A DNA stretch of 46,010 bases from IMG/VR virus record IMGVR_UViG_3300005265_000744, positions 1 to 46,010 of that record, one strand, 5' to 3'. Below are positions 5,139-24,000 of this stretch, one piece after another. Both the position numbers and the translations under genes were made by a program. The notes beneath the pieces were generated by a model that worked only from the letters and a program-made list of their open reading frames with translations, ran no database searches and was not told where the DNA came from. Source of the DNA: a virus. Every line of letters starts with the position of its first letter. The stretch's first letter is position 1.

Positions 5139-5798
5139 GTGTGCTTCACCCCTACTATAGCTGAATCCCTAAGACCTGTACTTCTACTAACTAGTATTTA
5201 CGTAGCTGCTCTGCTGCTAGCTGACATTATTGCTGTTAAACTCGTTCAGTTCTTCATATTTGTGATACCACTTGGTACATTCCTGTATGCTATTACCTTC
5301 CTGATAACAGACATTGCAGGCGAAGTCTATGGCAAACATGTTGCAAGACAAGTTGTCCTTTCTGGACTCGTAGCTAAGCTACTACACATCTTTGCCTGTG
5401 TAGTAGTATGGTGTACAACTTCGGTCAATCCTGACGTTGCAGTCCACCTAGAAGAGGTGCTGCAGCTCAGTCCATGCATAACAATCGCGTCAGTTATTGC
5501 CTACCTAGCTTCACAGCTATTTGACGTTGAGGTCTTTGAGAAAATCAGGAAAGCAACAGGCGGAAAGCACCTATGGCTCAGGAACAATGCCTCAACAATA
5601 ATGAGTCAAACCATTGATACAGTCTTGTTCTGTATACTTGCTTTCTACCTGCTACCAGTTCTTGTGGCAGGAAAACCAATCATAGGGATTGAAAAGCTAC
5701 CAAACCTGATACTTGCACAGTTAACTGTCAAGTACATCCTAGCACTTGGAGATACAGGATTCTGCTACCTAGGTGTCAAGCTACTTAGGAGAAAATGA
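5139..5798 (+). CDS. Queuosine-precursor transporter family protein (YhhQ/QPTR-like)
   Basis: This 219-residue integral membrane protein has about six hydrophobic segments. Its length matches the YhhQ/COG1738 family of preQ0/preQ1 transporters. Family-like features visible are ADIIAVKL in the first membrane segments, a Tyr/Thr-Phe-Asp-Glu-YGK-AR stretch (about residues 47-70), and RNNAST followed by SQ-x2-D in the fifth segment (about 148-160). The start is GTG 5139, leaderless, 27 bases after a TTTATAA box at about 5110. YhhQ proteins import 7-deazaguanine bases. With the DpdA-like gene at 17958 this suggests salvage of preQ0 or preQ1 for DNA modification. Substrate identity is inferred. Confidence 0.8.
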   Translation: MCFTPTIAESLRPVLLLTSIYVAALLLADIIAVKLVQFFIFVIPLGTFLYAITFLITDIAGEVYGKHVARQVVLSGLVAKLLHIFACVVVWCTTSVNPDVAVHLEEVLQLSPCITIASVIAYLASQLFDVEVFEKIRKATGGKHLWLRNNASTIMSQTIDTVLFCILAFYLLPVLVAGKPIIGIEKLPNLILAQLTVKYILALGDTGFCYLGVKLLRRK

Positions 5799-5831
5799 GA
5801 CGAATCTCGTCAAAGCTAAGCTTAAATTGCA

Positions 5832-5847
5832 GTTTCTAGATACAAAA
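5832..5847. promoter_or_regulatory. Class A palindrome upstream of the 5859 gene
   Basis: GTTTCTA-GA-TACAAAA lies 11 bases before ATG 5859 and just after a CTTAAATT TATA-like box (5821-5828). It combines the two alternative arms seen in the other class A sites. Confidence 0.65.
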
Positions 5848-5858
5848 CAACTAGCCTA

Positions 5859-6185
5859 ATGCCAAAGTCAACGATTTCCATCAGGATCTTTGATTACAGG
5901 TTTGTCAAACTGTATATAGAGACCATGAAGCTTATACGCGAGCTCTTCAGGAATGAGCAATACGTGATCGAGTTTGCTAGAATGGTGGCAGATCTTCTCC
6001 ATGAAGGTGGTCTGGTAGATTCTAAGCAACGCGAGAACATCTTTGTTGAGTTGGTGTGGACTCTATCCAAGATACAGGAAGACTACAGGAATCGAGGCTG
6101 CAGAGTAAGTATAGTAGCCAAAGTATCGGCAGTCCTTGCCAACCTCGTGCTAAATGCGTTCTTAAAGAAGAAACAGCAACAGTAA
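5859..6185 (+). CDS. Hypothetical protein, 108 residues
   Basis: I do not recognise this small, mainly helical protein. It has a basic C-terminus (KKKQQQ). It has its own TATA box and a class A operator, so it is probably co-regulated with the genes at 2422, 36115, 40315 and 42818. No Cys motif or membrane segment is evident. Confidence 0.65.
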   Translation: MPKSTISIRIFDYRFVKLYIETMKLIRELFRNEQYVIEFARMVADLLHEGGLVDSKQRENIFVELVWTLSKIQEDYRNRGCRVSIVAKVSAVLANLVLNAFLKKKQQQ

Positions 6186-6197
6186 GCTAGAAAGTCC

Positions 6198-6452
6198 ATG
6201 TTGTCAATCTTATGCGACCTAGCACACATACTATTAGGGGTATTGACAGGACTCCTAACAGGATACGCAATTAAGAGAAGACGAATCAAAGTCCTAGCTC
6301 TATGCCTAACTATTCATAGCCTGTTCCTAGGTTACGAGGCATGGGAAAGCCTACTGATCGAGAAGACTTGGACTACATTCATGAAAGATTATGTTCTAGA
6401 GTTCCTGACATTTAAACTTGTGTTCATTGCAATTGGACTTCTACTATTTTAG
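6198..6452 (+). CDS. Small membrane protein, 84 residues
   Basis: It has three probable membrane segments: residues about 5-24, 32-48 and 66-84. A basic KRRRIK loop separates the first two. It lies 12 bases downstream of the 108-residue gene and is likely co-transcribed. Its last bases overlap the convergent 6449-6880 gene by 4 bases. No function can be assigned; membrane remodelling or egress is possible. Confidence 0.65.
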   Translation: MLSILCDLAHILLGVLTGLLTGYAIKRRRIKVLALCLTIHSLFLGYEAWESLLIEKTWTTFMKDYVLEFLTFKLVFIAIGLLLF

Positions 6453-6880
6453 ACTAGTACTATAAAACAGCCTAGGCCGTGTTTGTCTTCATGTTTCTTT
6501 ACGATTCGTCCTAGCAGCTTCTTGACTTCATCAAACTCAAACTCAAGTGGCTTTTCCTCAGGACGCATCTTTGCCCTGCCTTTGCACTTGAAGACCTCAA
6601 CGACAAGGATCTGTCTTGTAGTACGCTTTAGCTCCTGTATTGCTTGCAACCACTCTTCCTTCCTGTCTGCATCTACTCTAATTACATAGCACTTGTACTT
6701 CTCGGTTAGGTACTTGCTGTTTCGCCAACATGGTGCACAGCCAAAGTCAATTACTTTCAATCTCCTTAGCTTGCCTCCTAGGTATTCCTCTAGTAGCTTA
6801 ATTCCTGTTGATCTTGGTGACTTGTTTGGACATCTAAAGCAGTAGTACTTCCTGAGTGCGTAAATCCTGTTGAAGACCAT
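6449..6880 (-). CDS. Cys-containing hypothetical protein, possibly methyltransferase-derived
   Basis: This is a 143-residue protein starting at ATG 6880. The frame is open to TTG 6892, but ATG is preferred. It lies 17 bases after the methyltransferase gene at 6898-7419 and is likely in the same operon. An N-terminal YYCFRCP motif and a VIDFGCAPC stretch (about residues 43-51) followed by YVIRVDADR resemble the first strand/loop and second strand of a class I SAM fold. The glycine pattern is poor and the protein is short, so this is weak. It could instead be an unrelated Cys-rich protein. Confidence 0.6.
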   Translation of the reverse strand: MVFNRIYALRKYYCFRCPNKSPRSTGIKLLEEYLGGKLRRLKVIDFGCAPCWRNSKYLTEKYKCYVIRVDADRKEEWLQAIQELKRTTRQILVVEVFKCKGRAKMRPEEKPLEFEFDEVKKLLGRIVKKHEDKHGLGCFIVLV

Positions 6881-6897
6881 GGTTATTACCAATTGGT

Positions 6898-7419
6898 TTA
6901 CTTTCTGATTAGTGCTTGGTATGATCCTGAGCCCTTTGCTGTTTTTATGATCTGACCCATCTTCTTTGCATCTACCACGAACTCAGTATATGTCATCCTG
7001 TAGTTTCCTGTCTTAACCTCGTAGTAGGCAAAGAAGATAAGTGCACTATTCTTTGCAACTCTCTTGATCTCGCTATATGTTCTGTCTTTGTTTGTCACAA
7101 ACATGACAACATTCCAGTATAGGATTACATCTGCCACGTCATCTCTAATTGGCAAGTACTCGGCGACTGCTCTAATCACATCAATTCCTGCTTTATGGAT
7201 CAGCTTTGCGAACTTCTCGTATGGCTCAACCGCTATCTTTCTTCTTGCATCTAGTGTCTTGATCTTGTCGCCATAGCCTGCACCTACATCTATCAATGTG
7301 TCGACATGCTTTGGATAGTTCTTCTTGATGAACTCTGGTACACCTGTTGCTTGCTTGCAGATACCTAGCTTGTAGGACTTTGACTTGTTTGGTGTGTTTT
7401 GTGTTACCACTGTCTTCAT
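6898..7419 (-). CDS. Class I SAM-dependent methyltransferase
   Basis: This 173-residue protein has a clear Rossmann-type methyltransferase core. DVGAGYGDK is the SAM-binding motif I, KIAVEPYEK is motif II with its acidic residue, and AEYLPIRDDVADVILYWNVVMFV is the motif III-IV region. That pattern is typical of type-11-like methyltransferases. The substrate is unknown. The start at ATG 7419 is fixed by a class B promoter with a palindrome exactly 12 bases upstream. The 6449-6880 gene follows it. Rudiviruses also encode small SAM methyltransferases, though I cannot show direct orthology. Confidence 0.8.
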   Translation of the reverse strand: MKTVVTQNTPNKSKSYKLGICKQATGVPEFIKKNYPKHVDTLIDVGAGYGDKIKTLDARRKIAVEPYEKFAKLIHKAGIDVIRAVAEYLPIRDDVADVILYWNVVMFVTNKDRTYSEIKRVAKNSALIFFAYYEVKTGNYRMTYTEFVVDAKKMGQIIKTAKGSGSYQALIRK

Positions 7420-7431
7420 GGCCGAGCTATA

Positions 7432-7467
7432 GTTAGCATGCTAACTTTTAAGCATTACCAAATTTGG
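7432..7467 (-). promoter_or_regulatory. Class B promoter module of the methyltransferase gene
   Basis: On the minus strand this reads CCAAATTTGG (7458-7467), a CTTAAAAG TATA box, then the perfect palindrome GTTAGCATGCTAAC (7432-7445), then 12 bases to the ATG. The same arrangement with the same 12-base spacing occurs before the genes at 20270 and 21431. The palindrome spans the likely transcription start, as expected for an operator. Confidence 0.8.
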
Positions 7468-7549
7468 GATTCAACTCCACATGACCATCCTGACTCCCAA
7501 AAATCCAAATTTAACTTAAATACTAGACTAGCTATAGGAGGATCTAGTC

Positions 7550-7738
7550 ATGAAGCTTGAGCGTGAATTTGTCAGGAAGCCAATCCTAGTCAAGCATAGA
7601 AAGGGTGACAAAGTTTATGAAGAGGCTGTGATCCCACTTACTATTACGGTACCTCGTGATTGGGTTGGAAAGAACGTTAAAATAATAGTCAAGCTAATAC
7701 CACCTGAGCAGAATGTCCAATCCACAGAACCTAGATAG
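7550..7738 (+). CDS. Small basic beta-rich protein, 62 residues
   Basis: It is a paralogue of the 54-residue protein at 20055-20219. Both end in a strand-rich block with the pattern P-x2-(W/L)VGK-x-VKI-x-VK-(L/I)-x-P-x-EQ. The basic N-terminus followed by short strands is reminiscent of small AbrB-like or other swapped-hairpin proteins, but I cannot assign a family. AGGAGGATCT precedes the ATG, one of the few strong Shine-Dalgarno-like sequences in the window. A CTTAAATA TATA-like box lies at about 7514. Confidence 0.7.
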   Translation: MKLEREFVRKPILVKHRKGDKVYEEAVIPLTITVPRDWVGKNVKIIVKLIPPEQNVQSTEPR

Positions 7739-7931
7739 TGCAAGTAAGACTAGACTCATCCTTAAACTTGAGTCTTTAGACTTGGTTCATTGTCCATATG
7801 ACTTGCCTAGTTTACTTGACCTAGCTGTTATCTACTACAATGCTGATTGTTTGCACTGTAAACTAGAGGCTTCTGACCTTATGAGAGTTGTAGCTTATTA
7901 CTGTGAAAGATGTAAGAAGTGTCTCTCCTAA
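7713..7931 (+). CDS. Small Cys-rich protein, 72 residues, probable zinc binder
   Basis: It overlaps the previous gene by 26 bases in another frame, suggesting translational coupling. C-x2-C pairs at about residues 46-49 (CLHC) and 64-70 (CERCKKC), plus an upstream HC, suggest a zinc-binding fold. The protein is otherwise unrecognised. The arrangement recalls small zinc-finger regulators of archaeal viruses. Confidence 0.65.
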   Translation: MSNPQNLDSASKTRLILKLESLDLVHCPYDLPSLLDLAVIYYNADCLHCKLEASDLMRVVAYYCERCKKCLS

Positions 7932-7981
7932 TTCCACATTTGGTAATGTTTAAAACTGTAGACGCAAAACTTAGCATAGCC

Positions 7982-8110
7982 ATGAAGACAAACTCTGTTA
8001 AAAAACATGAACCGAAATTGAAAAAATTGAAAAACAGGCAAAACACTGAAATAGCACTGATTGAGGTCAAACCACAGGAGTCAGAACCAACAATCGAAGA
8101 TGTTGAGTAA
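7982..8110 (+). CDS. Short Lys-rich protein, 42 residues
   Basis: It starts at ATG 7982, about 29 bases after a GTTTAAAAC TATA box (7948-7956) whose upstream part (CCACATTTGGTAATG) resembles the class B promoters. An earlier in-frame start at 7919 lies upstream of this TATA box and is unlikely. The protein is lysine-rich at its N-terminus and acidic at its C-terminus. It has no recognisable family, and its reality rests mainly on the promoter. Confidence 0.45.
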   Translation: MKTNSVKKHEPKLKKLKNRQNTEIALIEVKPQESEPTIEDVE

Positions 8111-8111
8111 T

Positions 8112-8375
8112 ATGGCTCGTCCACTGCCGAAGTACCCAATATACACACTAATCTGCGCATACTGTGGCAGAGAGCTGATCAGGCTGACAGCAGTAGAAGT
8201 CGCAAAGATACTAGACATTAGTCTTGTTAACACGCAAGAAATTATGACACCAAGTGCAATTTACAGGCTAGTCAAGAAACTAAAACTACCTGACTATTGT
8301 CCACACTGTGGCATGAAGCTCATGAAAATACCAGAAATTAATAAAATAAGTGTGACCATAAGAGATAAACACTAA
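8112..8375 (+). CDS. Zinc-ribbon protein, about 87 residues
   Basis: Two C-x2-C knuckles, CAYC near the N-terminus and CPHC near the C-terminus, flank a helical stretch. They probably fold together around one zinc. The intervening EVAKILD...SAIYRLVKKL could be helix-turn-helix-like. The likely start is ATG 8112 (MARPL); ATG 8100, overlapping the end of the previous gene, is an alternative. A regulatory or nucleic-acid-binding role is a guess. Confidence 0.65.
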   Translation: MARPLPKYPIYTLICAYCGRELIRLTAVEVAKILDISLVNTQEIMTPSAIYRLVKKLKLPDYCPHCGMKLMKIPEINKISVTIRDKH

Positions 8376-8402
8376 AACAATTATTATTCAAACACCTTAG
8401 GC

Positions 8403-10007
8403 TTATCTTAGTAGTAGTGAGTCACTTATTATTACGTTACCCCAGACATTCGTGTTTGATGTTCCCGTGTTTTGAACCTTGATGTATGTGTATCTGCCAT
8501 AGATTGTAAATGTCTCTGTCTGTCCAGCAGGTACCCTCTTAATTACTATTTCACCTTCTGAAGTATCTGCTAGTAGGAGGACATCACCATCGCTTGGTGC
8601 AGTGATTCTAAAGCTTCCTCCTTTGATATGTTTTACATCACTTGACAGGTCGATTAGTGTTACTGTTTGTCCGGCAGGTACTGTTGTTGAGACATCTTTG
8701 CTATACTCGTATTCATCTGTAAATGCAAACAGGACAATTATGAACTTGCCAAGCTTACCTATACCTGACGTGCTCAATGTAACCTCGAATGACATTGTTG
8801 GGTGACCAAATACGCCACGCTTTGCAAAGTAGATCTTGAATGGTCTATCACCATATTTATACGTAGTATCTGTCTGCGAATCTGTTACAATTGTTACTCC
8901 TGCTGGGTGAACCTTAATTGAAATTGATAACGGATTAGTTCCATCTCCAGCAATTGCATAGGCAACATACATGTGTGCAGTAGCCCTGATAGCTCCAGAG
9001 AGCATAATATCGATTGTAAATGTTAGGGTCTCGTTGCTAAGCTCAAGCTCGAAAACGTCTTCCCATCCAAACAGGAGGCAAAAGCCCTTGACCTCAGCTA
9101 GGATCTCACACGCGGTTATAACACCAATATAGACTGCTACGTCGACCGACTGTGGGTTATAAACCTCAACTATGATTTCAGTACAGCCATGGTGAGCCTC
9201 CATGAACCAGTGCACAATAAATCGACCCCACTTGTTAGCTGGTAGTCTCAATCGCTTAGGCAACTTGTTTCTCGTAGCTGTTAATAATCCACCAAGTGTA
9301 ACATATGGCAAGACATAGACGTCGTAGTCTCTTGCATATAGGGTTATATATGAGCAGAATGGCATAAAGTATCTTGCTTTGACAGGAACTCTAACATAAA
9401 CTGTACCACCTGCTTTAACAACAATCTTTAGCACGTATGGACTACCAGTACTTTCAGGCTGTGGAAGACCCTCCGTTTGCCACGACACAATCTCGTAGGA
9501 TAAATAGTCACCTTCAACCTTGATGTAACCTAAGTCAAACTCGTCAACAGGAAAATCAGGCTTCTTAACTGTAAAGTCGACAACAGCTAGTAGTCTACCT
9601 CCTGATCTCCTAATCATGTAGTCATACTGATACCCAGCAAGTCTAACAACTGAGATATCCTTTGCAATACCAACCTGATCTTCAGCAACTGCAACTGGTA
9701 GGTTACCCTCTGCTGTTGGATTTGGAATCTTAGAATCTATACTTTGTAAAGTAGATTCTCTAGCAAGTCCAACAGAGTCGGATTTTACATCAATTGGCAA
9801 TTTATCGACAACATCTATCCACCTCTGTTCCTGACTATTATAGATCTGTAGCTGTGCCTTCCTAGGCAATGTTTCTGTGAGCTTGCTAACAATAGAATCA
9901 CGAACATTTGACAGAGTAACATCAAGCCTACTTAAAACTAGCTTAGAATGATGATGCAGCTTGTTGTATAGTGCTATTAATCCACCTAGGACTCGCTTAA
10001 GAGACAT
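8403..10007 (-). CDS. Large beta-rich protein, probable virion or fibre component
   Basis: This 534-residue protein has a helical N-terminus (residues about 1-60) followed by long beta-rich segments. Near the C-terminus two similar VPAGQT motifs (at about 446 and 498) suggest related beta-sandwich domains. No enzyme motif is seen. It is the last gene of a five-gene minus-strand block (8403-13088) with coiled-coil and beta-rich products, so a virion surface or terminal-fibre role is plausible. It has its own TATA-like TTTTATAC at about 10020-10027. I could not match it to a named family. Confidence 0.7.
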   Translation of the reverse strand: MSLKRVLGGLIALYNKLHHHSKLVLSRLDVTLSNVRDSIVSKLTETLPRKAQLQIYNSQEQRWIDVVDKLPIDVKSDSVGLARESTLQSIDSKIPNPTAEGNLPVAVAEDQVGIAKDISVVRLAGYQYDYMIRRSGGRLLAVVDFTVKKPDFPVDEFDLGYIKVEGDYLSYEIVSWQTEGLPQPESTGSPYVLKIVVKAGGTVYVRVPVKARYFMPFCSYITLYARDYDVYVLPYVTLGGLLTATRNKLPKRLRLPANKWGRFIVHWFMEAHHGCTEIIVEVYNPQSVDVAVYIGVITACEILAEVKGFCLLFGWEDVFELELSNETLTFTIDIMLSGAIRATAHMYVAYAIAGDGTNPLSISIKVHPAGVTIVTDSQTDTTYKYGDRPFKIYFAKRGVFGHPTMSFEVTLSTSGIGKLGKFIIVLFAFTDEYEYSKDVSTTVPAGQTVTLIDLSSDVKHIKGGSFRITAPSDGDVLLLADTSEGEIVIKRVPAGQTETFTIYGRYTYIKVQNTGTSNTNVWGNVIISDSLLLR

Positions 10008-10075
10008 CTAGACTCAGTATAAAATCTGAGACAAGTAGGTAAAAAGCTTATGAAATATTGAAAAGCCTAGCTAAA

Positions 10076-10510
10076 CTAGTAAATTAGTGTTGGGTTACTA
10101 ATTAGTTCGTTTATATAATCTCGAATTAACAACATTAATTCAATTATAATGTCAATAATGTGTGTTAAATATGTCATATTTATATACTCCACAGAGGCAA
10201 GACCACTTGGGCTATGCCTAAGCTTTAATAGAGTTTGCCGCATGATAACTTGCTGATTGTCAATAGTAGTTTCGATAAGTCCATCAACCCTTAGTCTAGT
10301 ATTTGTTAAATGTACATAGAACTTACGTACCATAACCTCCTGATTAGCTTTTGTCTCGTACAATGCAACAATATTTATATCAGCCTCAATCGGTAAAAAA
10401 CCTAGGTTTTGAACTAGGGTATTTACGAACAACTCAATGTTACTATTTCCAAGAGATCTAACTTGTTGGATCTTCTCAGCAAGAGTTACAGATGTTGTAG
10501 ATTCTGCCAT
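10076..10510 (-). CDS. Hypothetical protein, 144 residues, probable virion-associated
   Basis: It has a Ser/Thr-rich N-terminus, a strand-rich middle and a long hydrophobic C-terminal helix (about residues 108-138) that could be a membrane or packing helix. It lies between a beta-rich gene and a helical gene in the putative structural block. A half-copy of the class A operator (TCTAGAAAC, 10525-10533 on the plus strand) precedes it. Confidence 0.6.
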   Translation of the reverse strand: MAESTTSVTLAEKIQQVRSLGNSNIELFVNTLVQNLGFLPIEADINIVALYETKANQEVMVRKFYVHLTNTRLRVDGLIETTIDNQQVIMRQTLLKLRHSPSGLASVEYINMTYLTHIIDIIIELMLLIRDYINELISNPTLIY

Positions 10511-10545
10511 TCTAAATAAACAAATCTAGAAACTTGGTTTAAAAA

Positions 10546-11193
10546 TTAGGTTTCATCGATTGAAATAAGATAACCTTCAGGATCATACATGAATGTTATT
10601 GTTCTTGTCTCACCTGTTAACTTGTCTGTTATGGTCATTTTCTTGATGTTCTTGTTTTCATCATATTCAATATCAATCTTAAGTGGGTTTGTCTTGACAT
10701 CAGGATCTTCTAGCAGAGGCATTAATGTCTCCTCAATTGCCTTTCTAGTACCTTCATAGACTTGCTCAGACACTAATATACCTAGTTGCTTAGCTAATAT
10801 TCTTTCTGTTGGGTCAATAGTTACGCCAAGTTGTTGAGCAATTTCACGCAATGGCTCTTCTCTTAAACCAAGTGCAAGCCAATAAATAAACAGAGCATTT
10901 GCCTCTCTCTGAAGTGCCTCATCCCTATAACGCATTTTACAATACCAAATACCTTGTGCAAACCAAACATATGCATGTTCACGAATTAACTCGTCTGGAT
11001 ACTTTGAAATAACAGACTTAACAATTTTGATAAGTTCCTCATGAATAGCCTGATATTGAATAATCTTATCAAGTGCTATTGGCTTAGTCCTCCCTAGATA
11101 AACAGCATAGACCTCAGCATTCATCTTACGATCCCAAAGCTTTGCTCTCTGCTCAGGAGTCCTATACAATACATGCTTACGCCTACGAGCCAT
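10546..11193 (-). CDS. Hypothetical protein, 215 residues
   Basis: The N-terminus is very basic (MARRRKH). The body is helical to about residue 170, followed by a beta-hairpin-rich tail (about 172-215) of the form IEYDENKNIKKMTITDKLTG, ending in acidic residues. It is encoded in the minus-strand structural-type block. The basic start could contact DNA, but no family is recognised. Confidence 0.6.
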   Translation of the reverse strand: MARRRKHVLYRTPEQRAKLWDRKMNAEVYAVYLGRTKPIALDKIIQYQAIHEELIKIVKSVISKYPDELIREHAYVWFAQGIWYCKMRYRDEALQREANALFIYWLALGLREEPLREIAQQLGVTIDPTERILAKQLGILVSEQVYEGTRKAIEETLMPLLEDPDVKTNPLKIDIEYDENKNIKKMTITDKLTGETRTITFMYDPEGYLISIDET

Positions 11194-11216
11194 AGTACCT
11201 AAAGTTAAAACAGCTA

Positions 11217-12017
11217 TCAGAAATATAACTCAACCCATACAACATACTGCGTCTCTGGATCAAGCGTAACAGAATATTCAACATATAGTAGTGGACAACA
11301 ATCACATTCATCCTTTGCTCCCTCTGGACAAGAACTACAACATGTTACATTATAATGTCTACCTGTGTAAAGACATATACCAATAGCTCCATAGGATTCA
11401 GGTGTTGCACCAGTTGCAAAAGTGCCACTTAGCCTAATTGTTTTATTATACACATAACGTCTACTAATACCAACTGTTCTAAACCTTGAGCTTGGAGGTG
11501 AAGTTCCACTTAGAAAAATTAAATCTCCATTGTATATTTGTGAAATTGTATTTGCACAAACATAGGTTCCGTCAATATTGTAAATAGTTTCAAAACATTG
11601 ATATGTTGGTTGGCTTGCACAGGTACCGCCACCACATGCACAAATTTCTACTCTAAATAGCCAAGTTACGAAAAGCCCAAAGTTTTCATCAACAATAGGG
11701 TCAACTAATCCTACTTTACCAACTACTTTACCTTTTTTATCAAAAATCTTTGCATTTAGTTTAATAGACTTTTCAAGTATTAGTTTTACTCGTTCAATGT
11801 CAGTTCTGGTTATGTGTTTGTCTTGCCTTATCAGTTTTATTGCAAGGTCAATGTCTCTCTCTGCTATTGTTAAATATGCTAGCTTAAGAATAGGATTTGC
11901 GTCTACTAAATCTAGTAGTAATTGCAAATCGGACAGAGTTATTGGTTTTACAGCTTTCATCCATAATCTAGCCACTAGCTGCTTAATTAAATTAACTTGT
12001 TGCCCCGATTCCGGCAC
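11217..12017 (-). CDS. Cys-rich beta protein with helical N-terminus, probable virion protein
   Basis: This 266-residue protein has a helical first 95 residues. The beta-rich C-terminal half carries about 16 Cys, including a CACGGGTC cluster and a CCSSC...CDCC cluster. That suggests disulfides or bound metal, and an extracellular virion position in a thermophile. The GTG start at 12017 overlaps the upstream gene by 26 bases; an in-frame ATG at 11960 is a possible alternative. The context is the minus-strand structural block. Confidence 0.6.
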   Translation of the reverse strand: MPESGQQVNLIKQLVARLWMKAVKPITLSDLQLLLDLVDANPILKLAYLTIAERDIDLAIKLIRQDKHITRTDIERVKLILEKSIKLNAKIFDKKGKVVGKVGLVDPIVDENFGLFVTWLFRVEICACGGGTCASQPTYQCFETIYNIDGTYVCANTISQIYNGDLIFLSGTSPPSSRFRTVGISRRYVYNKTIRLSGTFATGATPESYGAIGICLYTGRHYNVTCCSSCPEGAKDECDCCPLLYVEYSVTLDPETQYVVWVELYF

Positions 12018-12561
12018 TATATCCTGTTATTAATGTTTCTCCTCCGCTAATAGGTTTGGGAATCGATACATCGTATCCTGTTATGAGTGAATGGTCGACA
12101 CTAATAGGTTTGGGAATCGATACATCATATCTTGTTATAAGTATGTGTTTTACTATTGGGAACTTTGCAAGCAGTTCTTCGAGTTCTTCTACTCTTGTTT
12201 CTAATTGTTGAATTTGTCGTATTAGAGTTGATTGAAGCTCATCAAAGACTGAAACGATTGTACGCATGGCGTCAACAAGCTCATTGTGATCTCTCGCAAG
12301 GACTATGTCTCCTGAACGGACATATCTCAATGATGCGACTTTTGCTCTCAAGGTTTCAAGGGTTTTTAGTACATTACTCATATCAATGTTATACTGTGTT
12401 TGCAGATATGTAACGATTTCGAGTAGGGTCTCATATGTTAATACACATGCATCATTTACTAGGTTTTTGTCAGATGGCTCTATAATATCAACAAAGTCTC
12501 TAACATAGCGTAGTTTACTAACTATTGTCTTTAGTTTTGATAGTTTTTCCTGGTAGGTCAT
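11992..12561 (-). CDS. Coiled-coil fibre-like protein with C-terminal peptide repeats
   Basis: It has 189 residues. A YVRSGDIVLARDHNELVDA stretch (about residues 79-97) matches a motif common in phage and archaeal-virus fibre or appendage proteins. A heptad coiled coil follows (about 100-135). The tail has an 18-residue tandem repeat built on LITGYDVSIPKPIS (two good copies and a degenerate third). The start ATG overlaps the stop of the 12561-13088 gene by one base (TAATG), indicating translational coupling. An oligomeric virion spike or fibre shaft is the likely role. Confidence 0.7.
   Translation of the reverse strand: MTYQEKLSKLKTIVSKLRYVRDFVDIIEPSDKNLVNDACVLTYETLLEIVTYLQTQYNIDMSNVLKTLETLRAKVASLRYVRSGDIVLARDHNELVDAMRTIVSVFDELQSTLIRQIQQLETRVEELEELLAKFPIVKHILITRYDVSIPKPISVDHSLITGYDVSIPKPISGGETLITGYSAGIGATS
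12030..12145 (-). repeat. 54-base coding tandem repeat
   Basis: A 43-base block at 12047-12089 recurs at 12101-12143, a period of 54 bases, with a partial third unit toward 12030. It encodes the 18-residue repeats at the C-terminus of the fibre-like protein. Such repeats expand and contract easily, and may tune fibre length or receptor binding. Confidence 0.85.
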
Positions 12562-13088
12562 TAAACCTCGATTAGTATTGGTATTGGGTCATAAATATCA
12601 AAGTTGTATTCTCTGCAGATTTGTGGCTCAAACCATCTGAAGTTCAGGTTTTCGTCGATATAGAACATTGTTGCGTGTCCTACTCTCAGCCTTGGAATGT
12701 AGATCCAGACCTTTCCAATTGCGAGATTTAGCCTTTTCCTGTATCTTAGCATGCTCACGAGGCCTTGACAAACGTTTGAGTAGTCATCACAATCAAATAT
12801 TGGGTGTTGATACTTTTTGTCGCCTAGGTACTCACAGCACATCTTCTTTAGCTCTTCGATATCCTCCCTAGTAACGACATGATACCAAGGATCTGCAACG
12901 TAGATTTTACAGTTGTTAACAAGCCATCTCCAAAGACACCTAGGCTTTAGCCTGAATTTCTCAAGGATTATATCGACAAGTTCATCTGCGGACAATACTC
13001 TACGTTCTGCAGTTATAGAAGCTTCAACAGTTAGTTCCTTTATTGCAAGTCTAGGAATCTTATAAAGTCTGTAGATCCTAACTACCAT
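12561..13088 (-). CDS. Papain/transglutaminase-fold-like protein with Cys-His-Glu triad
   Basis: This 175-residue protein has a C-terminal half with FDCDDYS (C100), a long spacer, GHATMFYID (H138) and RWFEPQ (E154). The DCDD...GHA...EPQ pattern is shared by a papain-like family found in phages and in the C-terminal domain of Marasmius agglutinin. The Cys, His and Glu would form the catalytic site. It begins the minus-strand structural block and could process virion proteins or act at the cell envelope during entry or exit. It may instead be a non-enzymatic fold. A GTTTATAC TATA-like box lies just upstream at about 13090-13097. Confidence 0.6.
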   Translation of the reverse strand: MVVRIYRLYKIPRLAIKELTVEASITAERRVLSADELVDIILEKFRLKPRCLWRWLVNNCKIYVADPWYHVVTREDIEELKKMCCEYLGDKKYQHPIFDCDDYSNVCQGLVSMLRYRKRLNLAIGKVWIYIPRLRVGHATMFYIDENLNFRWFEPQICREYNFDIYDPIPILIEV

Positions 13089-13110
13089 ACGTATAAACCA
13101 AGCAAAAACT

Positions 13111-13119
13111 ACTTAAATA
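13111..13119 (+). promoter_or_regulatory. TATA box for the 13.14-kb RNA candidate
   Basis: ACTTAAATA lies in the gap between divergent genes. With normal archaeal spacing it would start transcription at about 13138-13142, exactly where the structured segment begins. The 13279 gene has a separate TATA box (CTTTTATAA, 13244-13252), so this one is not needed for it. Confidence 0.6.
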
Positions 13120-13137
13120 GTTGTCCTAACAATTACA

Positions 13138-13236
13138 CACGAGTGATGAACGTTAGTCACAGGCTGTGGCACGGTCGCCTCGGGTCGCGACCGTGCGCAG
13201 ATCTCAGGTGAAGACTAACCACGCTGCTGATCTCTC
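13138..13236 (+). ncRNA. Structured GC-rich non-coding RNA candidate
   Basis: This segment of about 100 bases is far richer in G+C than its surroundings. A 10-bp perfect hairpin, GCACGGTCGC (13169-13178) with GCGACCGTGC (13187-13196), has loop CTCGGGTC. A short CTG/CAG helix lies below it, then an asymmetric internal loop, then an outer helix GTTAGTC (13152-13158) with GACTAAC (13213-13219). GTGATGA (13143-13149) and CTGA (13227-13230) at the edges match box C and box D of archaeal C/D RNAs, although the GC hairpin inside is unusual for that class. A TATA box is correctly placed upstream and T-rich sequence follows from about 13244. It is not a tRNA, because no T-loop or acceptor stem is seen. 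Confidence 0.6.
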
Positions 13237-13278
13237 AACAATACTTTTATAATTACTTTAGTAATAGTCTATACGAGC

Positions 13279-14970
13279 GTGGTTCACACAGAAACAATTT
13301 CTAAGAAGAAGTCAGGACATAGAGACTCTGGACATGGCTGGATTTATTTAGGCACGGACAAGTATTTTGGGCAGGTTTACATTTATAAGGACTTCTCGAA
13401 ACTTCGTGTAAAACTCTATGACCCAGGTAAGAAAAAACAAGTATTTTTCACTCTTGAGTCAGCTCTTGGATTCATTTATTTGCTCAGGCTGGACCACCTG
13501 TTGATTGAAGCTGCTTATAGCGAGAAGTTCAAGAAGGATCCATTTCTAGCAGAGTTCATCATCAAGCTAATTGCCATGTACAAGCAGCTCCGCAGAAAAG
13601 TACGTAGGCTAAGAGGAATTGCAGATGTCAAAGAAATACTACAGATTAGGGATAGTAGCTTGCAAGTCCTGTATAACCAAGTCCTGCCACTTGTAAAGAA
13701 GCGTGTTGGCAAGCTGCCAAAACTACGTCCTCTCTACAGCAGGAAAAACCCTCTTAAGAATCAATACTGGAAACGAGTCCAGAGAAGCATCAGGATCATA
13801 ATAGACTCACGCTACCACAAGAAAGACGCATGGCAAGTCTACCTACGCTGCCTGGACATCATCGAGAAGCTGAAAGAGAAAGGCTACATCATTGTAAGGT
13901 CGATTGACCCATATAAGTTCCTCAGCATTAGAACTAGAGAGATCCCAATTGATGCAGAATTCGCGATAACGAAAGGAAACCTAAACATTCTATTTAACAA
14001 GCTTATAGAGACGATAATAAGAGCACGAATACAGCAAGACCCATACCTGCTGACAAAGTTCACTGAATTTGTGGAGAAGCATTATCCATTACTATTTAGA
14101 AAAGTTCAGAAATTATATGAAAAGAGGAGAAAGCAAAAGAAGAGGAATTACGATCCATTTGACTTCTACCTATACCTACTGAACGTAATTTGGAAAAAGA
14201 GACCTGACATCTTAGAGGCATTTGCAAAGTATTACGTGAAAGAGCTGAAGGTTATTGAAGGTGATTTGATCGAGAAGGCTATCAACGACTATAAGAAACG
14301 TAAGATACTAGTTGTAGTTGAGTGTGAGCTAAAGCGTTCAGCATTCTTAACATCTGAGGATGCAATTATAAGAGGCATTACTGAAAGGTTAGTAAATACT
14401 GACTTGGAGATTAACAAAGCTGGATTAAAACTAAAGCTTGTTGGTGCATTTATAGGTGTTAAAGTAAGTTCAGAAAAAGCAATTGACGTTGATGTTACCG
14501 AGTATGTGTACGATCTTGGAAAGTTTATGACCGAGAGAGGGCTGCAAAAAGTTATTGCTAAAATTGTTAGGAGGGTTGCAGAGAGCAACATTCCAATTAA
14601 CTCAGAATGGTATGTAACATTTGTCTATGCACCTGAAAATGTTGCTGATGAATTTCTAAAGGATAGAGAGAAACTTAGAAAAGCGATTGAGAGATGGACA
14701 ATATTCAAGTCAATTGCAGAGTTTAGATATGTGGGTGGATGGAATCTAGTAGATATTAGAAGATACCTTGTAATAAGATATTCAATACCAAGACCCATTG
14801 CATTTACGCAAGTGACAATGTTTGTGAAGAGAACAAGAGTCAGAGTTCTAATTTATATTCCAAAGAGAGGACAACTAGAGATTGAGACAAGTCTAGTTAA
14901 TCCAAATAGAATCAGAATAATATCTTATAAACCACCAAAGACTATACTACAGGCTATTCACCACAAATAA
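13279..14970 (+). CDS. Large basic hypothetical protein, 563 residues
   Basis: I do not recognise this protein. It is strongly basic and mostly helical at about residues 45-330, with Arg/Lys-rich stretches such as KQLRRKVRRLRG (about 98-109). A mixed alpha/beta region follows (about 335-563). The N-terminus contains a possible small beta domain (WIYLGTDKYFGQVYIYKDF). It starts at GTG 13279, leaderless after a TATA box at 13244-13252. Its charge suggests nucleic-acid binding. No nuclease, polymerase or terminal-protein motif could be identified. Its end overlaps the convergent gene at 14954 by 17 bases. Confidence 0.75.
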   Translation: MVHTETISKKKSGHRDSGHGWIYLGTDKYFGQVYIYKDFSKLRVKLYDPGKKKQVFFTLESALGFIYLLRLDHLLIEAAYSEKFKKDPFLAEFIIKLIAMYKQLRRKVRRLRGIADVKEILQIRDSSLQVLYNQVLPLVKKRVGKLPKLRPLYSRKNPLKNQYWKRVQRSIRIIIDSRYHKKDAWQVYLRCLDIIEKLKEKGYIIVRSIDPYKFLSIRTREIPIDAEFAITKGNLNILFNKLIETIIRARIQQDPYLLTKFTEFVEKHYPLLFRKVQKLYEKRRKQKKRNYDPFDFYLYLLNVIWKKRPDILEAFAKYYVKELKVIEGDLIEKAINDYKKRKILVVVECELKRSAFLTSEDAIIRGITERLVNTDLEINKAGLKLKLVGAFIGVKVSSEKAIDVDVTEYVYDLGKFMTERGLQKVIAKIVRRVAESNIPINSEWYVTFVYAPENVADEFLKDREKLRKAIERWTIFKSIAEFRYVGGWNLVDIRRYLVIRYSIPRPIAFTQVTMFVKRTRVRVLIYIPKRGQLEIETSLVNPNRIRIISYKPPKTILQAIHHK

Positions 14971-15430
14971 TTCTAAATAAATTGCCAACAACAACAGCTC
15001 GCTCAACTACAAGTCTCTGATACTTTTCTTGCTTAGTTCTACATCTCTTAATGAGATACTTTAGAATTAGTCTTTCTCTCTCTATCAATTCTCTTAGTAT
15101 TTGAGGTTTGTAAATTATATCATGAATAGGTAAGGTAACAATTGCTATTTTATCAGCAGGTTTTTCCGTCGAATTTTCATAAAGCAGAAATGATAGCTCA
15201 AGTTCAGCTCTCGCTAGTAAATATAGCAAGGTTAAGTAGCCTACAATACTGTCAGTTTTAAGGCTTTGCTCTAGTTGTCGCATTTCAGGTTTTGAATTGT
15301 TATCTAATTGTATTAACTTGTCAAAAATTATTCTTAGTAAGAACAAGCTCTTTTCATAAAGTGTTCTTATAGGTGTTATAATATGGAAACGAGGAAATAA
15401 GCCGTCCCTATAGATTACTTGAATTTTCAT
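14954..15430 (-). CDS. Hypothetical protein, 158 residues
   Basis: I do not recognise this protein. It is mainly helical, with Leu-rich segments at about residues 60-85 and 110-135. Its 3' end overlaps the 563-residue gene on the other strand by 17 bases. It lies downstream of the minus-strand gene at 15464-15754. Confidence 0.6.
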   Translation of the reverse strand: MKIQVIYRDGLFPRFHIITPIRTLYEKSLFLLRIIFDKLIQLDNNSKPEMRQLEQSLKTDSIVGYLTLLYLLARAELELSFLLYENSTEKPADKIAIVTLPIHDIIYKPQILRELIERERLILKYLIKRCRTKQEKYQRLVVERAVVVGNLFRIICGE

Positions 15431-15463
15431 CAGTTTACCTAGGCTGTAAGCACTATTTAACAG

Positions 15464-15754
15464 TTATGGTGATTTAGATGACTCAAGTGTGATAACATAA
15501 ATTTTGTCTTCGCACCTAATCTGACCTTTCTTGACTGGGATAATCAGGAAATAGTCACAGTCACGGAACGACTTTGGAATATATACATTTAGCTGTGCAT
15601 GCTCAACCTCATATTCACGGCCTTTGACCTTTGTCTTGACCTTGTAGGTCTTTATGTTTTTGGCAGGAATAAGAAGAGCCTGTGTAAATCCTGAATTTAT
15701 AAAAGCCTTGATCTTCCTACGACTATCTGTCTTCCTAGACACAGGTATGACCAT
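15464..15754 (-). CDS. Hypothetical beta-rich protein, 96 residues
   Basis: It starts at ATG 15754, because the TATA-like TTAAATAT (minus strand, 15775-15782) lies inside the longer open frame. The basic, strand-rich small protein carries KVKTKVKGREYEVEHAQLNVYIPKSF, faintly like the small strand-rich proteins at 7550 and 20055. Function is unknown. It shares a short divergent promoter region with the methyltransferase at 15791. Confidence 0.55.
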   Translation of the reverse strand: MVIPVSRKTDSRRKIKAFINSGFTQALLIPAKNIKTYKVKTKVKGREYEVEHAQLNVYIPKSFRDCDYFLIIPVKKGQIRCEDKIYVITLESSKSP

Positions 15755-15790
15755 GTGCAAGACTTTAAATAGATATTTAATGCTAGACAA

Positions 15791-16366
15791 ATGATGGAAT
15801 TTACATATCAACAACTAAAACAAATTTTATATGAAGAGTCAAAGAAACATGGATGGGGTCTGATTTTAATTGCTAGACAACAGTTAAATAGAATTATTCT
15901 TGAAAAAGCAAGAGGTAAGAAGATTTTTAAACTACTGGATATAGGCTGTCATAATCGCCTGCTTGAGAAGACCGTTGAAGAGTGGCTTAGAGAAGTTAAG
16001 GTAAAGTTATATGGAATTGGATTAGATATTGTTGTTTATAAGGTAAAGCCTGAAGTTATTGCATCAGGTGATTTACTACCGTTTAGGTATGGCTCATTTG
16101 ACTTCATAACGATTATTGAGACGCTTGAACATATTCCTGACTATGTATGTTGTTTAAAACAGTGTTTCAGAATCTTGAAACAGAGTGGTGGAATATTCAT
16201 ACAAAGCGTGAGTTGTCTCAGTCCACATAGCTATTCAGGAGATCCAACACATTTACACGTTCTACATCCTGATACACTTGAGAGACTAATGCAATATATT
16301 GGATATAGAGTAGTTGAGAAGGGATTTATCAACAGGACATTCTACCTGTACGCTGAGCGACCATAA
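15791..16366 (+). CDS. Class I SAM-dependent methyltransferase
   Basis: This 191-residue protein has LLDIGCHNR as motif I (weakly glycine-rich), GIGLDIV as motif II, SGDLLPFRYGSFDFITIIETLEHI as motif III-IV and FRILKQSGGIFIQS as motif V. That order fits type-11/23-like methyltransferases. The later HLHVLHPDTLERLM segment is common in methyltransferases associated with sugar or surface modification. It is followed by a sulfotransferase-like gene, so it may belong to a glycan-decoration set. The substrate is unknown. Confidence 0.8.
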   Translation: MMEFTYQQLKQILYEESKKHGWGLILIARQQLNRIILEKARGKKIFKLLDIGCHNRLLEKTVEEWLREVKVKLYGIGLDIVVYKVKPEVIASGDLLPFRYGSFDFITIIETLEHIPDYVCCLKQCFRILKQSGGIFIQSVSCLSPHSYSGDPTHLHVLHPDTLERLMQYIGYRVVEKGFINRTFYLYAERP

Positions 16367-16410
16367 CAATCAGTAAGATTTTTGCAATTGTCGATTTTTT
16401 AGTAACAGAG

Positions 16411-17307
16411 ATGAAGTCTGCAATAAAGCTAATAATTAATGGTTATTACAGGACTGGCACCACTATACTAGCTAGGATTATCAAGCTTTCAAATCCTGAA
16501 ATCATAGTTCTTCACGAGCCAACCTCAGTCATTCTCTGTCATGAGCTTAGGAAATGGCGACGTGGTACGCCACATCCACTGCATGGCTTTGACGTGTATG
16601 AGGACTATTTCGAACTTGGTGAAGATTTCATTAGTGAGCTCTGTAAGGTCTGGAGAGAATACAGCTTCATAAGAGAGCCACACATGGTGATAAAAATTGT
16701 TGATTTCATTAACAACTACTGTTTGAGGACCGGTAGACAAACTGTGTTAAAGCTTAACCAAGCTTTTCTCTGCTTATCTACGCTTGCTGAGAAGTTCAAC
16801 ACTATTGTAATTCATATTTATAGGGATCCTGCCGAAACCCTCTATGACCAAGTCTTTCCAGAGTGGCAGAATGACCTGCATGCTGTCGAGGAGGCTCTGC
16901 TAAGAGGAAATGAAAAGTATCTACACATTATTGGCTTTTGGCTAGATCCGCTTTACGAGGAGCTTAGCAGGACAGTACCTGTAAAAGAGGTGGCAGCATG
17001 TGGTAAAGTTTACCGTTTCCTAATAGTGTACCTGACACTAAACACTATTGCTGTCAAACTGTGTGAACAAACTGATAAATGCGTGGTTGTTAGGTTTGAG
17101 GACATTGTAGATAAGCCACATCTCTTCAAGAAGCTTATCGAAAGCAGAACCGATCTAAAAATCAGAGATGATCACTTACAAATCTTGAAGAGGTCTAAAG
17201 CCATAAAAGCTCCTGATTTCTTACGAAAGGCAGTCAAAGAAGCTATGCAGTTCCTAGAACTGCGTGAACCTGATATACCACCTCTAGAAGAAATTGTAAA
17301 TAGGTGA
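16411..17307 (+). CDS. Sulfotransferase-like P-loop protein
   Basis: This 298-residue protein starts with INGYYRTGTTILARII (about residues 9-24), the PAPS-binding 5'-phosphosulfate loop of sulfotransferases (G-x2-RTGTT). VIHIYRDPAETLYDQ (about 133-147) fits the 3'-phosphate-binding motif, except that the usual Ser is not obvious. A helical C-terminus follows. Sulfotransferases move sulfate from PAPS to sugars or proteins. A virus could use this to modify its own glycoproteins or host surface glycans. It lies next to a methyltransferase and shares the genome with two glycosyltransferases. Another P-loop kinase-like role is possible but less likely. Confidence 0.7.
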   Translation: MKSAIKLIINGYYRTGTTILARIIKLSNPEIIVLHEPTSVILCHELRKWRRGTPHPLHGFDVYEDYFELGEDFISELCKVWREYSFIREPHMVIKIVDFINNYCLRTGRQTVLKLNQAFLCLSTLAEKFNTIVIHIYRDPAETLYDQVFPEWQNDLHAVEEALLRGNEKYLHIIGFWLDPLYEELSRTVPVKEVAACGKVYRFLIVYLTLNTIAVKLCEQTDKCVVVRFEDIVDKPHLFKKLIESRTDLKIRDDHLQILKRSKAIKAPDFLRKAVKEAMQFLELREPDIPPLEEIVNR

Positions 17308-17311
17308 CAAC

Positions 17312-17500
17312 ATGGACACCACAATAATAGTACAGATAATAGCATTTGGATTCTCTCTAAATTCGGCACTTCTACTTTGGCTAGTCAAGAAAGTACTTGA
17401 GAACTCGCGTGATATAGCTGAAATCAAGGCTCTTATGAAAATTATTGTGCACAAGGTACTAAATGTTGAATTAAATTGTAACTCTAACAGGAGACAATGA
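17312..17500 (+). CDS. Small single-span membrane protein, 62 residues
   Basis: It has an N-terminal hydrophobic segment (about residues 5-27) and a charged, helical C-terminal half. It starts 4 bases after the sulfotransferase-like gene, and its stop overlaps the next start (ATGA). The layout (one N-terminal membrane helix plus a cytoplasmic helix) is the same general type as the rudivirus pyramid protein, but the sequence is too short to claim homology. Confidence 0.6.
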   Translation: MDTTIIVQIIAFGFSLNSALLLWLVKKVLENSRDIAEIKALMKIIVHKVLNVELNCNSNRRQ

Positions 17501-17670
17501 GATGCAAGATTATTAAGAGACTATATTCAATTCAGAAACCTGAATCTCGATCCCTCAATTCTAGGTTCTTCGAAGTTTCGAGTAGGTGGTGTCCTGTAAG
17601 ACAGGACGTAGTAGTTATAGATAATGATGTTGAGATCATTGACAATGAGGTGGTTTACATCGGTTGTTGA
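17497..17670 (+). CDS. Short protein, 57 residues, coupled to the 17312 gene
   Basis: An open frame starts at the ATG that overlaps the stop of the 62-residue gene (ATGA) and ends at TGA 17668-17670. The product is basic at the N-terminus (MRCKIIKRLYSIQ) and acidic later (VVIDNDVEIIDNEVVYI). It overlaps the next gene by 26 bases. The tight coupling on both sides supports a real gene, but no family is known. Confidence 0.5.
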   Translation: MRCKIIKRLYSIQKPESRSLNSRFFEVSSRWCPVRQDVVVIDNDVEIIDNEVVYIGC

Positions 17671-17875
17671 TTGTGATGGAGATCAAATAGTAACTGTCAG
17701 GTGTGAGGACATCTGTTCTGAACAATGCAGGAAGTATGCAACCAAAAAGACAAACATGATGATTCAACATGACCCTAAGCTCAAGGCTCTTTACAACATG
17801 ATTTGGTATGGATTTTATGACGAATGTTTCAATCTTTGCATGGTAAAATGTCAGGAACAATACAGTAAAGGCTGA
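17645..17875 (+). CDS. Small Cys-rich protein, 76 residues
   Basis: It most likely starts at ATG 17645 (MRWFTSVVDCDGD), with an alternative at 17624. Seven Cys occur in spaced pairs (C-x9-C-x3-C-x3-C pattern early, then C-x3-C-x3-C late), suggesting metal binding or disulfides. It overlaps the previous gene and is the last of a four-gene chain beginning at 16411. Confidence 0.55.
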   Translation: MRWFTSVVDCDGDQIVTVRCEDICSEQCRKYATKKTNMMIQHDPKLKALYNMIWYGFYDECFNLCMVKCQEQYSKG

Positions 17876-17930
17876 AGTAAAACTAAATCTAATCCCAAAT
17901 TTGAGAGATGTACATTTTTAGCCACCATTT

Positions 17931-17955
17931 TACTACACCTAGCTGAGGTGTAGTA
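17931..17955. promoter_or_regulatory. Class C palindrome upstream of the DpdA-like gene
   Basis: Arms TACTACACCT and AGGTGTAGTA flank a 5-base centre, and the element ends 2 bases before ATG 17958. An almost identical copy lies at 36925-36949 before the primase gene, and a looser copy at 45778-45805. A CCCAAATTTG element at about 17893 is also shared with class B promoters. Confidence 0.75.
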
Positions 17956-17957
17956 GA

Positions 17958-19103
17958 ATGCCAAGCGTCTGGTATGATCCCAAGAGGCGAAGATGGGTTA
18001 TTCGCCTATCCAGAAACAAAACACGAACACTTGGACTATGGTCAGGTTTCAAAGAAGCACACTCATTTATTGCAAGCCGGATTACAGGCAAATTTAAATT
18101 CTTCTTCGTTATATCATCTGCCGATGTCCTAAACATAGCCAAGGCATTCATACATCTAAAACAAGTAGTACCAGATCTCACAAGGAAGATAGGTCTCCTG
18201 TTCTCGTTTGCAAACTTTGCAAAGATTAATGATCGAGGTAGGGTAATTGGCTATGACAGAGAGACTCTAGAGGCAATGAAGATGCTTAAGGAACATGGAT
18301 TTGAGATCATGGTAGATTCAGGTGCTTTCCACGTTTTAGCACGTAAGATTCCTGTTGAGAAGTTCCTGAGCTACATAGACGACTACATCAGATTTGTCAA
18401 TGAGCACCTTGACCTAATTGATTGGTTTGTAACAGCGGATATACCATGTGATGCACGTCCTGCAAAAGAAATCCAAGAAATGCCAAACAGATGGAAAATC
18501 GAGCAAACCGTCAAGAATACAATCTACATCATTGACAGGTGTCAGGATCCCAGGAAGTTAATCGCTGTGGTACAGGGCTATAATGTACACGAGTATGTCT
18601 ACTGCTGTGATCTACTTAGACAACACGGGATTATTACTGCTAGGACAGGCGTTGGTAGTCTCTGTATCAGGAAGTATGACGGCTCTGAGGTATTAATTGT
18701 TGCTGACATACTCGATAACGTTAAGAAAAACTTGCCACAATGGGTCAAACTCCACGCATTTGGACTCAACGTCAAATTCCTACAACACAAGGAAATAGCA
18801 GAGAAGCTCTATTCAAGCGACTCCGCAGCATGGTCTTTCTCATATACAAGATTTGGCAGAGTAACCCTCGTTAGTCAGGACGGAGACTTTGTCGAACTCG
18901 ACTTAAACCTACACAAGTACCTGTACCGCGCAGTCAAGTTACTTGAGATGGTTGGCTACGACAGGAAAGAGGTTGAGACACTTAAGCAGCTTGCATACCA
19001 TGCTGGACTTAGATCTGAGCGGGTTCTCCGTGACCGCATCCTGATCTACAAGCTGCTAATACTAACTTATCTAAGTAAGTTAAGTCAACTTGGTCTACTC
19101 TAG
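17958..19103 (+). CDS. DpdA-like tRNA-guanine-transglycosylase-fold enzyme (putative DNA 7-deazaguanine transglycosylase)
   Basis: This 381-residue protein has a TGT-type barrel. VDSGAF (119-124) matches the TGT S-DSGGF motif with its catalytic Asp, VVQG (204-207) the substrate-binding IVQG, and GVGSLC (231-236) the GLAVGE loop. LHAFGLN (265-271) and SSDSAAW (286-292, D288) fit the nucleophile region of phage DpdA proteins. DpdA enzymes swap guanine in DNA for preQ0 or a related base. Residues 1-45 (WYDPKRRRWVIRLSRN and then LGLWSGFKEA) resemble an AP2 or integrase-arm DNA-binding domain, which would favour DNA over tRNA as substrate. The YhhQ-like transporter at 5139 could supply the base. 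The gene is controlled by a class C palindrome. Confidence 0.82.
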   Translation: MPSVWYDPKRRRWVIRLSRNKTRTLGLWSGFKEAHSFIASRITGKFKFFFVISSADVLNIAKAFIHLKQVVPDLTRKIGLLFSFANFAKINDRGRVIGYDRETLEAMKMLKEHGFEIMVDSGAFHVLARKIPVEKFLSYIDDYIRFVNEHLDLIDWFVTADIPCDARPAKEIQEMPNRWKIEQTVKNTIYIIDRCQDPRKLIAVVQGYNVHEYVYCCDLLRQHGIITARTGVGSLCIRKYDGSEVLIVADILDNVKKNLPQWVKLHAFGLNVKFLQHKEIAEKLYSSDSAAWSFSYTRFGRVTLVSQDGDFVELDLNLHKYLYRAVKLLEMVGYDRKEVETLKQLAYHAGLRSERVLRDRILIYKLLILTYLSKLSQLGLL

Positions 19104-23730: not shown

Positions 23731-24000
23731 ATGAGCAACGTTGTTGAGAGAGCTGAGGAGTACAAAGGTTGGCAGTATATCCCTTTTGATAAGCTAAGAG
23801 AGCTTGAAGAACAGGAATTCGAAGTTGATTGTGACGGTGAAAAAGTCAGGTTAAAACCTCTGAAGGTTTGGACAACAGCTACAGCAGGGTCTTTTGGCAG
23901 TGTTATAGCAGTTTTCAAATGTCCTAACGGCAAGAAAGTTACGAAATGCCTTGGCTATACTTATCGACCGTTGACGGAGTTCTTTCCATTTGTTTGGTAG
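23731..24000 (+). CDS. Hypothetical protein, 89 residues
   Basis: A small mixed alpha/beta protein with four Cys (VDCDGE, FKCPNGKKVTKC). It sits between two putative structural genes in the same direction. There is no known family. Confidence 0.55.
   Translation: MSNVVERAEEYKGWQYIPFDKLRELEEQEFEVDCDGEKVRLKPLKVWTTATAGSFGSVIAVFKCPNGKKVTKCLGYTYRPLTEFFPFVW

Follow-up and report, generated by a model that had tools for sequence, protein, structure and literature searches.

We consider it moderately probable that the virus represented by IMG/VR record IMGVR_UViG_3300005265_000744 (46,010 bp, positions 1-46,010; the whole stretch is called the window here) encodes a two-part salvage-and-insert module for 7-deazaguanine, in which a YhhQ-type transporter imports a preQ0-type base and a DpdA-type enzyme of the TGT superfamily inserts it into the viral DNA. 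An initial annotation had recognized a YhhQ/QPTR-like transporter at 5139 and a TGT-fold DpdA-like protein at 17958, had noted the lack of preQ0 synthesis genes, and had suggested that the virus salvages the base. Open reading frames begin at both positions (Table 1), and when the two proteins were searched against COG1738 and DpdA models, the check which that annotation had named, both scored above the curated cut-offs.

The 381-residue protein matches Pfam DpdA (PF23859) at 37.6 bits (cut-off 27, E=1.7e-9) and PHROG 1279 (E=4.6e-13), PHROGs families that hold phage 'queuine tRNA-ribosyltransferase', and no match to the TGT family PF01702 was found anywhere in the window genome. When its single sequence was compared by hhalign with family alignments, the probability was 99.7 for the DpdA group of Thermococcus, haloarchaeal plasmids, Methanofastidiosa phage vir519 and mycobacteriophages, 98.4 for the 9g/CAjan/gut-phage group, and 1.3 for E. 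coli TGT together with archaeal TGTs (ArcTGT). All four motifs quoted in the initial annotation are present (VDSGAF 119-124, VVQG 204-207, GVGS 231-234 and SSDS 286-289); DSGAF, D161, VVQG, GVGS, LHAFG and SSDS align with catalytic and base-binding positions, the conserved residues being D120, D161, Q206-G207, G233-S234, H266 and D288. In the alignment, the catalytic aspartates D120 and D288 fall on DSGGF and MFDC in the TGT of E. coli, and H266 falls on His196 (VHGFG) of phage 9g DpdA, a position at which ArcTGT also has His, so that this residue is not exclusive to DpdA. Because no Cys occurs beyond residue 236, the protein has no TGT zinc site, and TGT, C1, C2 and PUA domains, all of which Thermococcus ArcTGT shows, gave no match in it. 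An AlphaFold model, with its core at residues ~45-293 (block pLDDT 61-94) and both ends poor, had 7ui4 ('DNA preQ0 insertase DpdA') as its top PDB match in Foldseek (E=3.1e-7), followed by many TGTs, at a moderate TM of ~0.4. In free trees, the protein stands at the base of the Thermococcus/plasmid/vir519/mycobacteriophage DpdA group (100/98; 97/90 in a second tree), and TGT and ArcTGT are separate from it (100/99). Profiles, the zinc site and the domains lead us to reject an ArcTGT identity, which the tree tests considered below do not reject; the protein is supported as DpdA-type, with a predicted base-exchange activity.

The transporter scores 153.8 bits against Pfam Vut_1 (PF02592; E=5.6e-45, above cut-off) and 148.4 bits against TIGR00697, the equivalog for the queuosine precursor transporter (cut-off 50.95, E=2.2e-43). 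This equivalog match, together with six hydrophobic segments in the hydropathy profile, identifies it as a member of the COG1738/YhhQ queuosine-precursor transporter family, for which preQ0/preQ1 is the predicted substrate; it is 37% identical to YhhQ of HCTV-1. In E. coli, preQ0 transport requires YhhQ (PMC5372724). Among the ~48 open reading frames scanned in the window genome, none matched the FolE, QueD, QueE, QueC, QueF or ArcS families, and the virus thus appears not to make preQ0. The terminal inverted repeats (111 nt, 97%) indicate that the linear genome is probably near complete, which argues against the synthesis genes being missing because the record is a fragment. Given the transporter and the missing synthesis genes, salvage is the likely source of the base, as had been suggested at the outset.

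Pairing of the two genes recurs in other viruses. Vut_1 was found in 4 of 10 IMG/VR records retrieved through DpdA, each time within ~1.5 kb of DpdA, versus 1 of 50 control viral records drawn by a neutral 14-mer, and that single control record has DpdA ~50 bp away (Fisher p=0.002; p=0.047 after collapsing related phages). DpdA adjoins YhhQ or lies a few genes off in phiFN37, Roos, MS1 and IMG/VR L013, L015/L016, L021 and G130: the order is DpdA, one gene, YhhQ in Fusobacterium phage phiFN37 and QueC-QueD-QueE-FolE-YhhQ-DpdA in Streptococcus MS1, and a DpdA-like open reading frame directly precedes YhhQ in Faecalibacterium phage Roos. YhhQ-type genes also lie within the clusters of Providencia PSTCR7 and CAjan, that of CAjan being a weak Vut_1 match, and within the preQ0 clusters of Vibrio 2.275.O and HCTV-1/16. 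On the tree, the transporter-linked state requires at least six changes, so that the pairing arose or was lost repeatedly. In one phage contig, two DpdA paralogues stand in tandem, with a YhhQ gene after them (L013:5997-7902).

In the mechanism that we propose, the YhhQ-type transporter would be made during infection and placed in the host membrane, where it would take up 7-deazaguanine as a free base, most likely preQ0 and possibly preQ1, that adds to the host's own supply for archaeosine. DpdA would then swap guanine for the imported base in viral DNA by TGT chemistry, with Asp288 as the nucleophile and Asp120 as the acid/base, and the modified DNA would escape cutting by host restriction enzymes. 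The family identities of both proteins, the intact catalytic residues, the lack of synthesis genes in a near-complete genome and the recurrent pairing elsewhere are established; from these we infer base uptake and membrane delivery, DNA as the substrate, the base concerned and the protection.

Several points weigh against this mechanism. The 381-residue protein reaches 20 bits against the bacterial DpdA equivalog NF041059, for which the cut-off is 200; the proven DpdA of CAjan is also far under it, at 16.9 bits. PF23859 is centred on the singleton DpdAs of mycobacteriophages (500 bits for ZoeJ). The transporter and dpdA are 12 kb apart in the window genome, the transporter was found in 0 of 40 rudivirus-like records, and no close relative with both genes was found among them. 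GGCC occurs at 0.49 of expectation in the window (1-46010), which may reflect site avoidance instead of chemical protection; GATC is not depleted, and avoidance of that site was dismissed. Finally, in the approximately unbiased (AU) test, neither a grouping that joins the window protein to TGT (p=0.456) nor one that joins it to the rudivirus proteins (p=0.161) is rejected. The tree is consequently not proof, and the case for DpdA is built on the profiles, the residues and the domain content. The initial annotation had taken grouping with ArcTGT as the outcome that would speak against its reading: profiles, residues, domains and free trees all favour DpdA, and the AU test leaves the TGT grouping standing.

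Among the alternatives, the one that survives best, although we think it unlikely, is that the enzyme resembles what is suspected for the mycobacteriophage singletons, in that preQ0 insertion has been lost or changed in favour of another base, an exchange akin to DNA repair or a role in binding. The group closest to the window enzyme takes in these singletons, with the protein of mycobacteriophage Orion as a presumed member. A 2019 study that raised functional divergence found no detectable modification in the DNA of Orion, which has DpdA only, and just ~50 dADG per million in the DpdA-only Salmonella phage 7-11 (PMC6884629), results that also count against insertion in the window virus. Divergence is opposed by the retention of all catalytic positions and by the presence of a precursor transporter, which would be needless for a protein that does not insert; moreover, the host of Orion lacks preQ0 synthesis, whereas archaea make preQ0 for archaeosine.

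Less likely again is an RNA-directed role, in which tRNA or another RNA is the substrate of the enzyme and the transporter increases the preQ0 available for archaeosine-type tRNA modification of the host during infection. The superfamily and the base-exchange residues are the same as in TGT, the VVQG of the window protein is closer to IIQG of TGT than to FHG of the 9g/CAjan DpdAs, and the AU result given above fits such a role. The lack of a TGT Pfam match, of the zinc-binding Cys/His site and of the tRNA-binding C1, C2 and PUA domains speaks against it, as do the profile comparisons, in which the protein fits DpdA better than TGT, and the failure of 9g DpdA to complement an E. coli tgt mutant (PMC6884629). 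The least likely alternative, that the transporter takes up another purine or a vitamin for nucleotide supply and is unrelated to DpdA, would suit the 12-kb separation, the presence of NrdD in the same virus and the fact that COG1738 is not homogeneous, with substrates that vary and may include other purines (PMC5372724), but every annotated phage that was found with the transporter and looked at carries it next to DpdA or within a preQ0 cluster; on three unannotated faecal scaffolds no DpdA was found.

With respect to the virus that would use this import and insertion module, the gene content, including the rudivirus-type capsid genes and the Cren7 gene, points most naturally to a rod-shaped virus whose host is an anaerobic and hyperthermophilic crenarchaeon. 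The capsid and Cren7 matches back the thermophilic rod-shaped virus presumed in the initial annotation, whose shape, host and temperature remain predictions from gene content. Two hallmarks of Adnaviria/Tokiviricetes are present, namely a coat protein of the Sulfolobus type and a linear genome with inverted terminal repeats, and A-form virion DNA is established for relatives of the window virus. The Cren7-like protein received no call by NCBIfam. Rudivirus counterparts were found for two glycosyltransferases and one 1425-residue protein, and the genome also encodes a distant DNA polymerase of family B. When viral contigs were scanned with single proteins, the queries being DpdA, the transporter, PolB and the open reading frame at 22555, no matches came up. 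The second capsid-domain protein, 31.7% identical to the SSRV1 capsid protein, is a fusion with beta-propeller families that exists in addition to the separate canonical capsid gene. The genes at 6898-7419 (-), 15791-16366 (+) and 16411-17307 (+) encode two small methyltransferases and a protein with a weak likeness to sulfotransferases, and glycosyltransferases are encoded at 24484 and 27264; together, these may possibly serve to decorate the virion surface.

Table 1. Coordinates of the features of the window that are discussed in the text.
Feature	Position	Strand	Details
COG1738/YhhQ-type queuosine-precursor (preQ0/preQ1) transporter (predicted substrate)	5139..5798	+	219 aa, GTG start; profiles, hydropathy
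DpdA-type base-exchange enzyme (predicted), TGT superfamily	17958..19103	+	381 aa; profiles, alignments, trees, AlphaFold model
N-terminal extension of DpdA	17958..18092	+	~45 aa; most Thermococcus relatives lack it; weak AP2-like match
Dyad over dpdA start	17926..17960	+	15-bp arms, 5-nt loop; covers Shine-Dalgarno-like AGGTG and dpdA ATG
Upstream promoter box TCCCAAATTTG of dpdA	17893..17903	+	also upstream of genes starting at 7419 (-), 20270 and 21431
Canonical rod-virus major capsid protein	26734..27108	+	124 aa; PF12193 E=2.5e-25; 35-38% identity with the capsid proteins of SIRV1, SBRV1 and SRV
Second capsid-domain protein	156..1844	-	562 aa; rudivirus-type major capsid protein domain (PF12193 E=9.7e-15) fused to FG-GAP/beta-propeller families
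Cren7-like chromatin protein	23731..24000	+	PF11520 28.5 bits, cut-off 25; pointer to crenarchaeal host
NrdD, anaerobic ribonucleotide reductase	38393-40243		nucleotide-metabolism gene
Left inverted terminal repeat	1..111	.	97% complementary to 45900-46010
Right inverted terminal repeat	45900..46010	.	97% complementary to 1-111

The start of dpdA lies within a near-perfect dyad, the only hairpin of such size in the 46 kb, which folds at a minimum free energy of -21.9 kcal/mol (z -4.5). Upstream of it is a box, TAATCCCAAATTTG, that is common to the promoters at 7419 (-), 20270 and 21431; its core has 8 matches versus 1.0 expected, a number reached in 0 of 100 shuffles. These three promoters (7416-7471, 20218-20273 and 21382-21435) are near-identical in combining the box with TTAAAAG and a TTAGCATGCTAA palindrome, and they may constitute a virus-specific regulon. 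Since palindromes like TTAGCATGCTAA occupy the place that the dyad has at dpdA, the dyad is equally likely to be an operator or an RNA hairpin; an RNA switch upstream of the genes was also considered and discarded, there being no Rfam match. The N-terminal extension of the enzyme has AP2 as its sole Pfam match (E=0.02, under cut-off) in a part of the model with low confidence, and no support came from PDB; we keep a DNA-binding AP2 N-terminus as a tentative lead.

If the proposed mechanism is true, 7-deazaguanine masking of DNA extends to the rod-shaped viruses that infect hyperthermophilic crenarchaea, and a virus comes with an importer for the base in place of biosynthesis genes. The long-annotated, unexplained 'queuine tRNA-ribosyltransferase' of the model rudiviruses would likewise gain a concrete role in modifying DNA, one that can already be tested on virion DNA of SIRV. 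A bolder scenario, which we regard as doubtful although worth stating, is that rod-shaped archaeal viruses package 7-deazaguanine DNA, that DpdA-type genes entered them at least twice (in the rudivirus/STSV and window lineages), and that the window virus, hyperthermophilic and packaging A-form DNA, imports the base and aims or times the enzyme through its N-terminal DNA-binding-like domain and the dyad, the modified guanines then being partly environmental in origin.

A group of viral DpdAs unaccompanied by synthesis genes has been described, and YhhQ in phages has been noted (PMC6884629); precedents also exist for viral DpdA together with YhhQ (PMC8651126). The clusters of 9g, CAjan, MS1 and PSTCR7 share the DpdA superfamily with the window and, in all but 9g, a YhhQ-type gene; unlike the window virus, these phages make the base themselves. 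DNA modification has been demonstrated for CAjan and 9g, and in CAjan, DpdA is essential for insertion and restriction resistance was shown (PMC6884629). A further set, phiFN37, Roos, L013, L015/L016, L021 and G130, combines a DpdA-type gene with COG1738 and has no preQ0 synthesis gene in the stretches read; these differ from the window virus in being bacterial tailed phages with the genes close together and with DpdAs from the 9g/CAjan-like half of the tree.

Among archaeal viruses, YhhQ has been described in HCTV-1/HCTV-16 (Druskaviridae) and DpdA alone in HRTV-29 (PMC8651126), and dPreQ1 was measured in HVTV-1, a relative of HCTV (PMC6884629, PMC8651126). Unlike the window virus, these are tailed, and HCTV has full synthesis with no recognised DpdA. 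HCTV-1 gene 64 (DUF6610; L007:9229-10392) adjoins FolE in the preQ0 cluster and was a candidate for the missing inserting enzyme, but hhalign gave no support for a hidden DpdA. The nearest relatives of the window enzyme are the DpdAs of Thermococcus elements, haloarchaeal plasmids and Methanofastidiosa phage vir519 (28-32% identity), most Thermococcus copies starting directly at the core, unlike the window enzyme with its N-terminal extension; no transporter was found in five such records (vir519, a T. nautili plasmid, two haloarchaeal plasmids and L012).

A parallel in the presumed virion shape is offered by the rudiviruses. To our knowledge, their 'queuine tRNA-ribosyltransferase' gene has not been reassigned by a DpdA-like profile. 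A TGT-superfamily gene is present in SIRV1-11, SBRV1 and SRV (the SIRV1 ORF306 family, found also in STSV), in 35 phage-collection records and, among the rudivirus-like IMG/VR records that are 27 kb or longer, in 13 of 14; hhalign gives this family a probability of 98.5 to the 9g/CAjan DpdA group versus 23.6 to TGT; by profile, we read the rudivirus/STSV gene as a diverged DpdA-like gene. The expectation of the initial annotation that the window would extend the system to rod-shaped archaeal viruses for the first time is accordingly not borne out, 12 Ligamenvirales having been flagged in 2019 for a TGT-superfamily gene (PMC6884629). Rudiviruses and STSV are rod-shaped archaeal viruses, as the window virus probably is, and like it they have a DpdA-like TGT-superfamily gene; unlike it, they represent a separate deep lineage with no PF23859 match and no YhhQ, the gene often lying beside an unrelated APC-type permease. 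This permease is conserved next to the DpdA-like gene in SIRV1-11 and SRV (L001:3033-5161, L180:2941-5062), and the two possibly follow the same salvage logic with another transporter. As a universal partner it was ruled out, since the genes are apart in SBRV1, and SSRV1 and ARV2 have the permease without the TGT-like gene. The rudivirus gene and the known DpdA/YhhQ pairs of phages thus temper the novelty of our findings; what is new is that a rod-shaped virus has YhhQ, that a second lineage of DpdA occurs in such viruses, and that a unique dyad spans the dpdA start, and with a different DpdA lineage and its own importer the window virus differs from the known rudiviruses.

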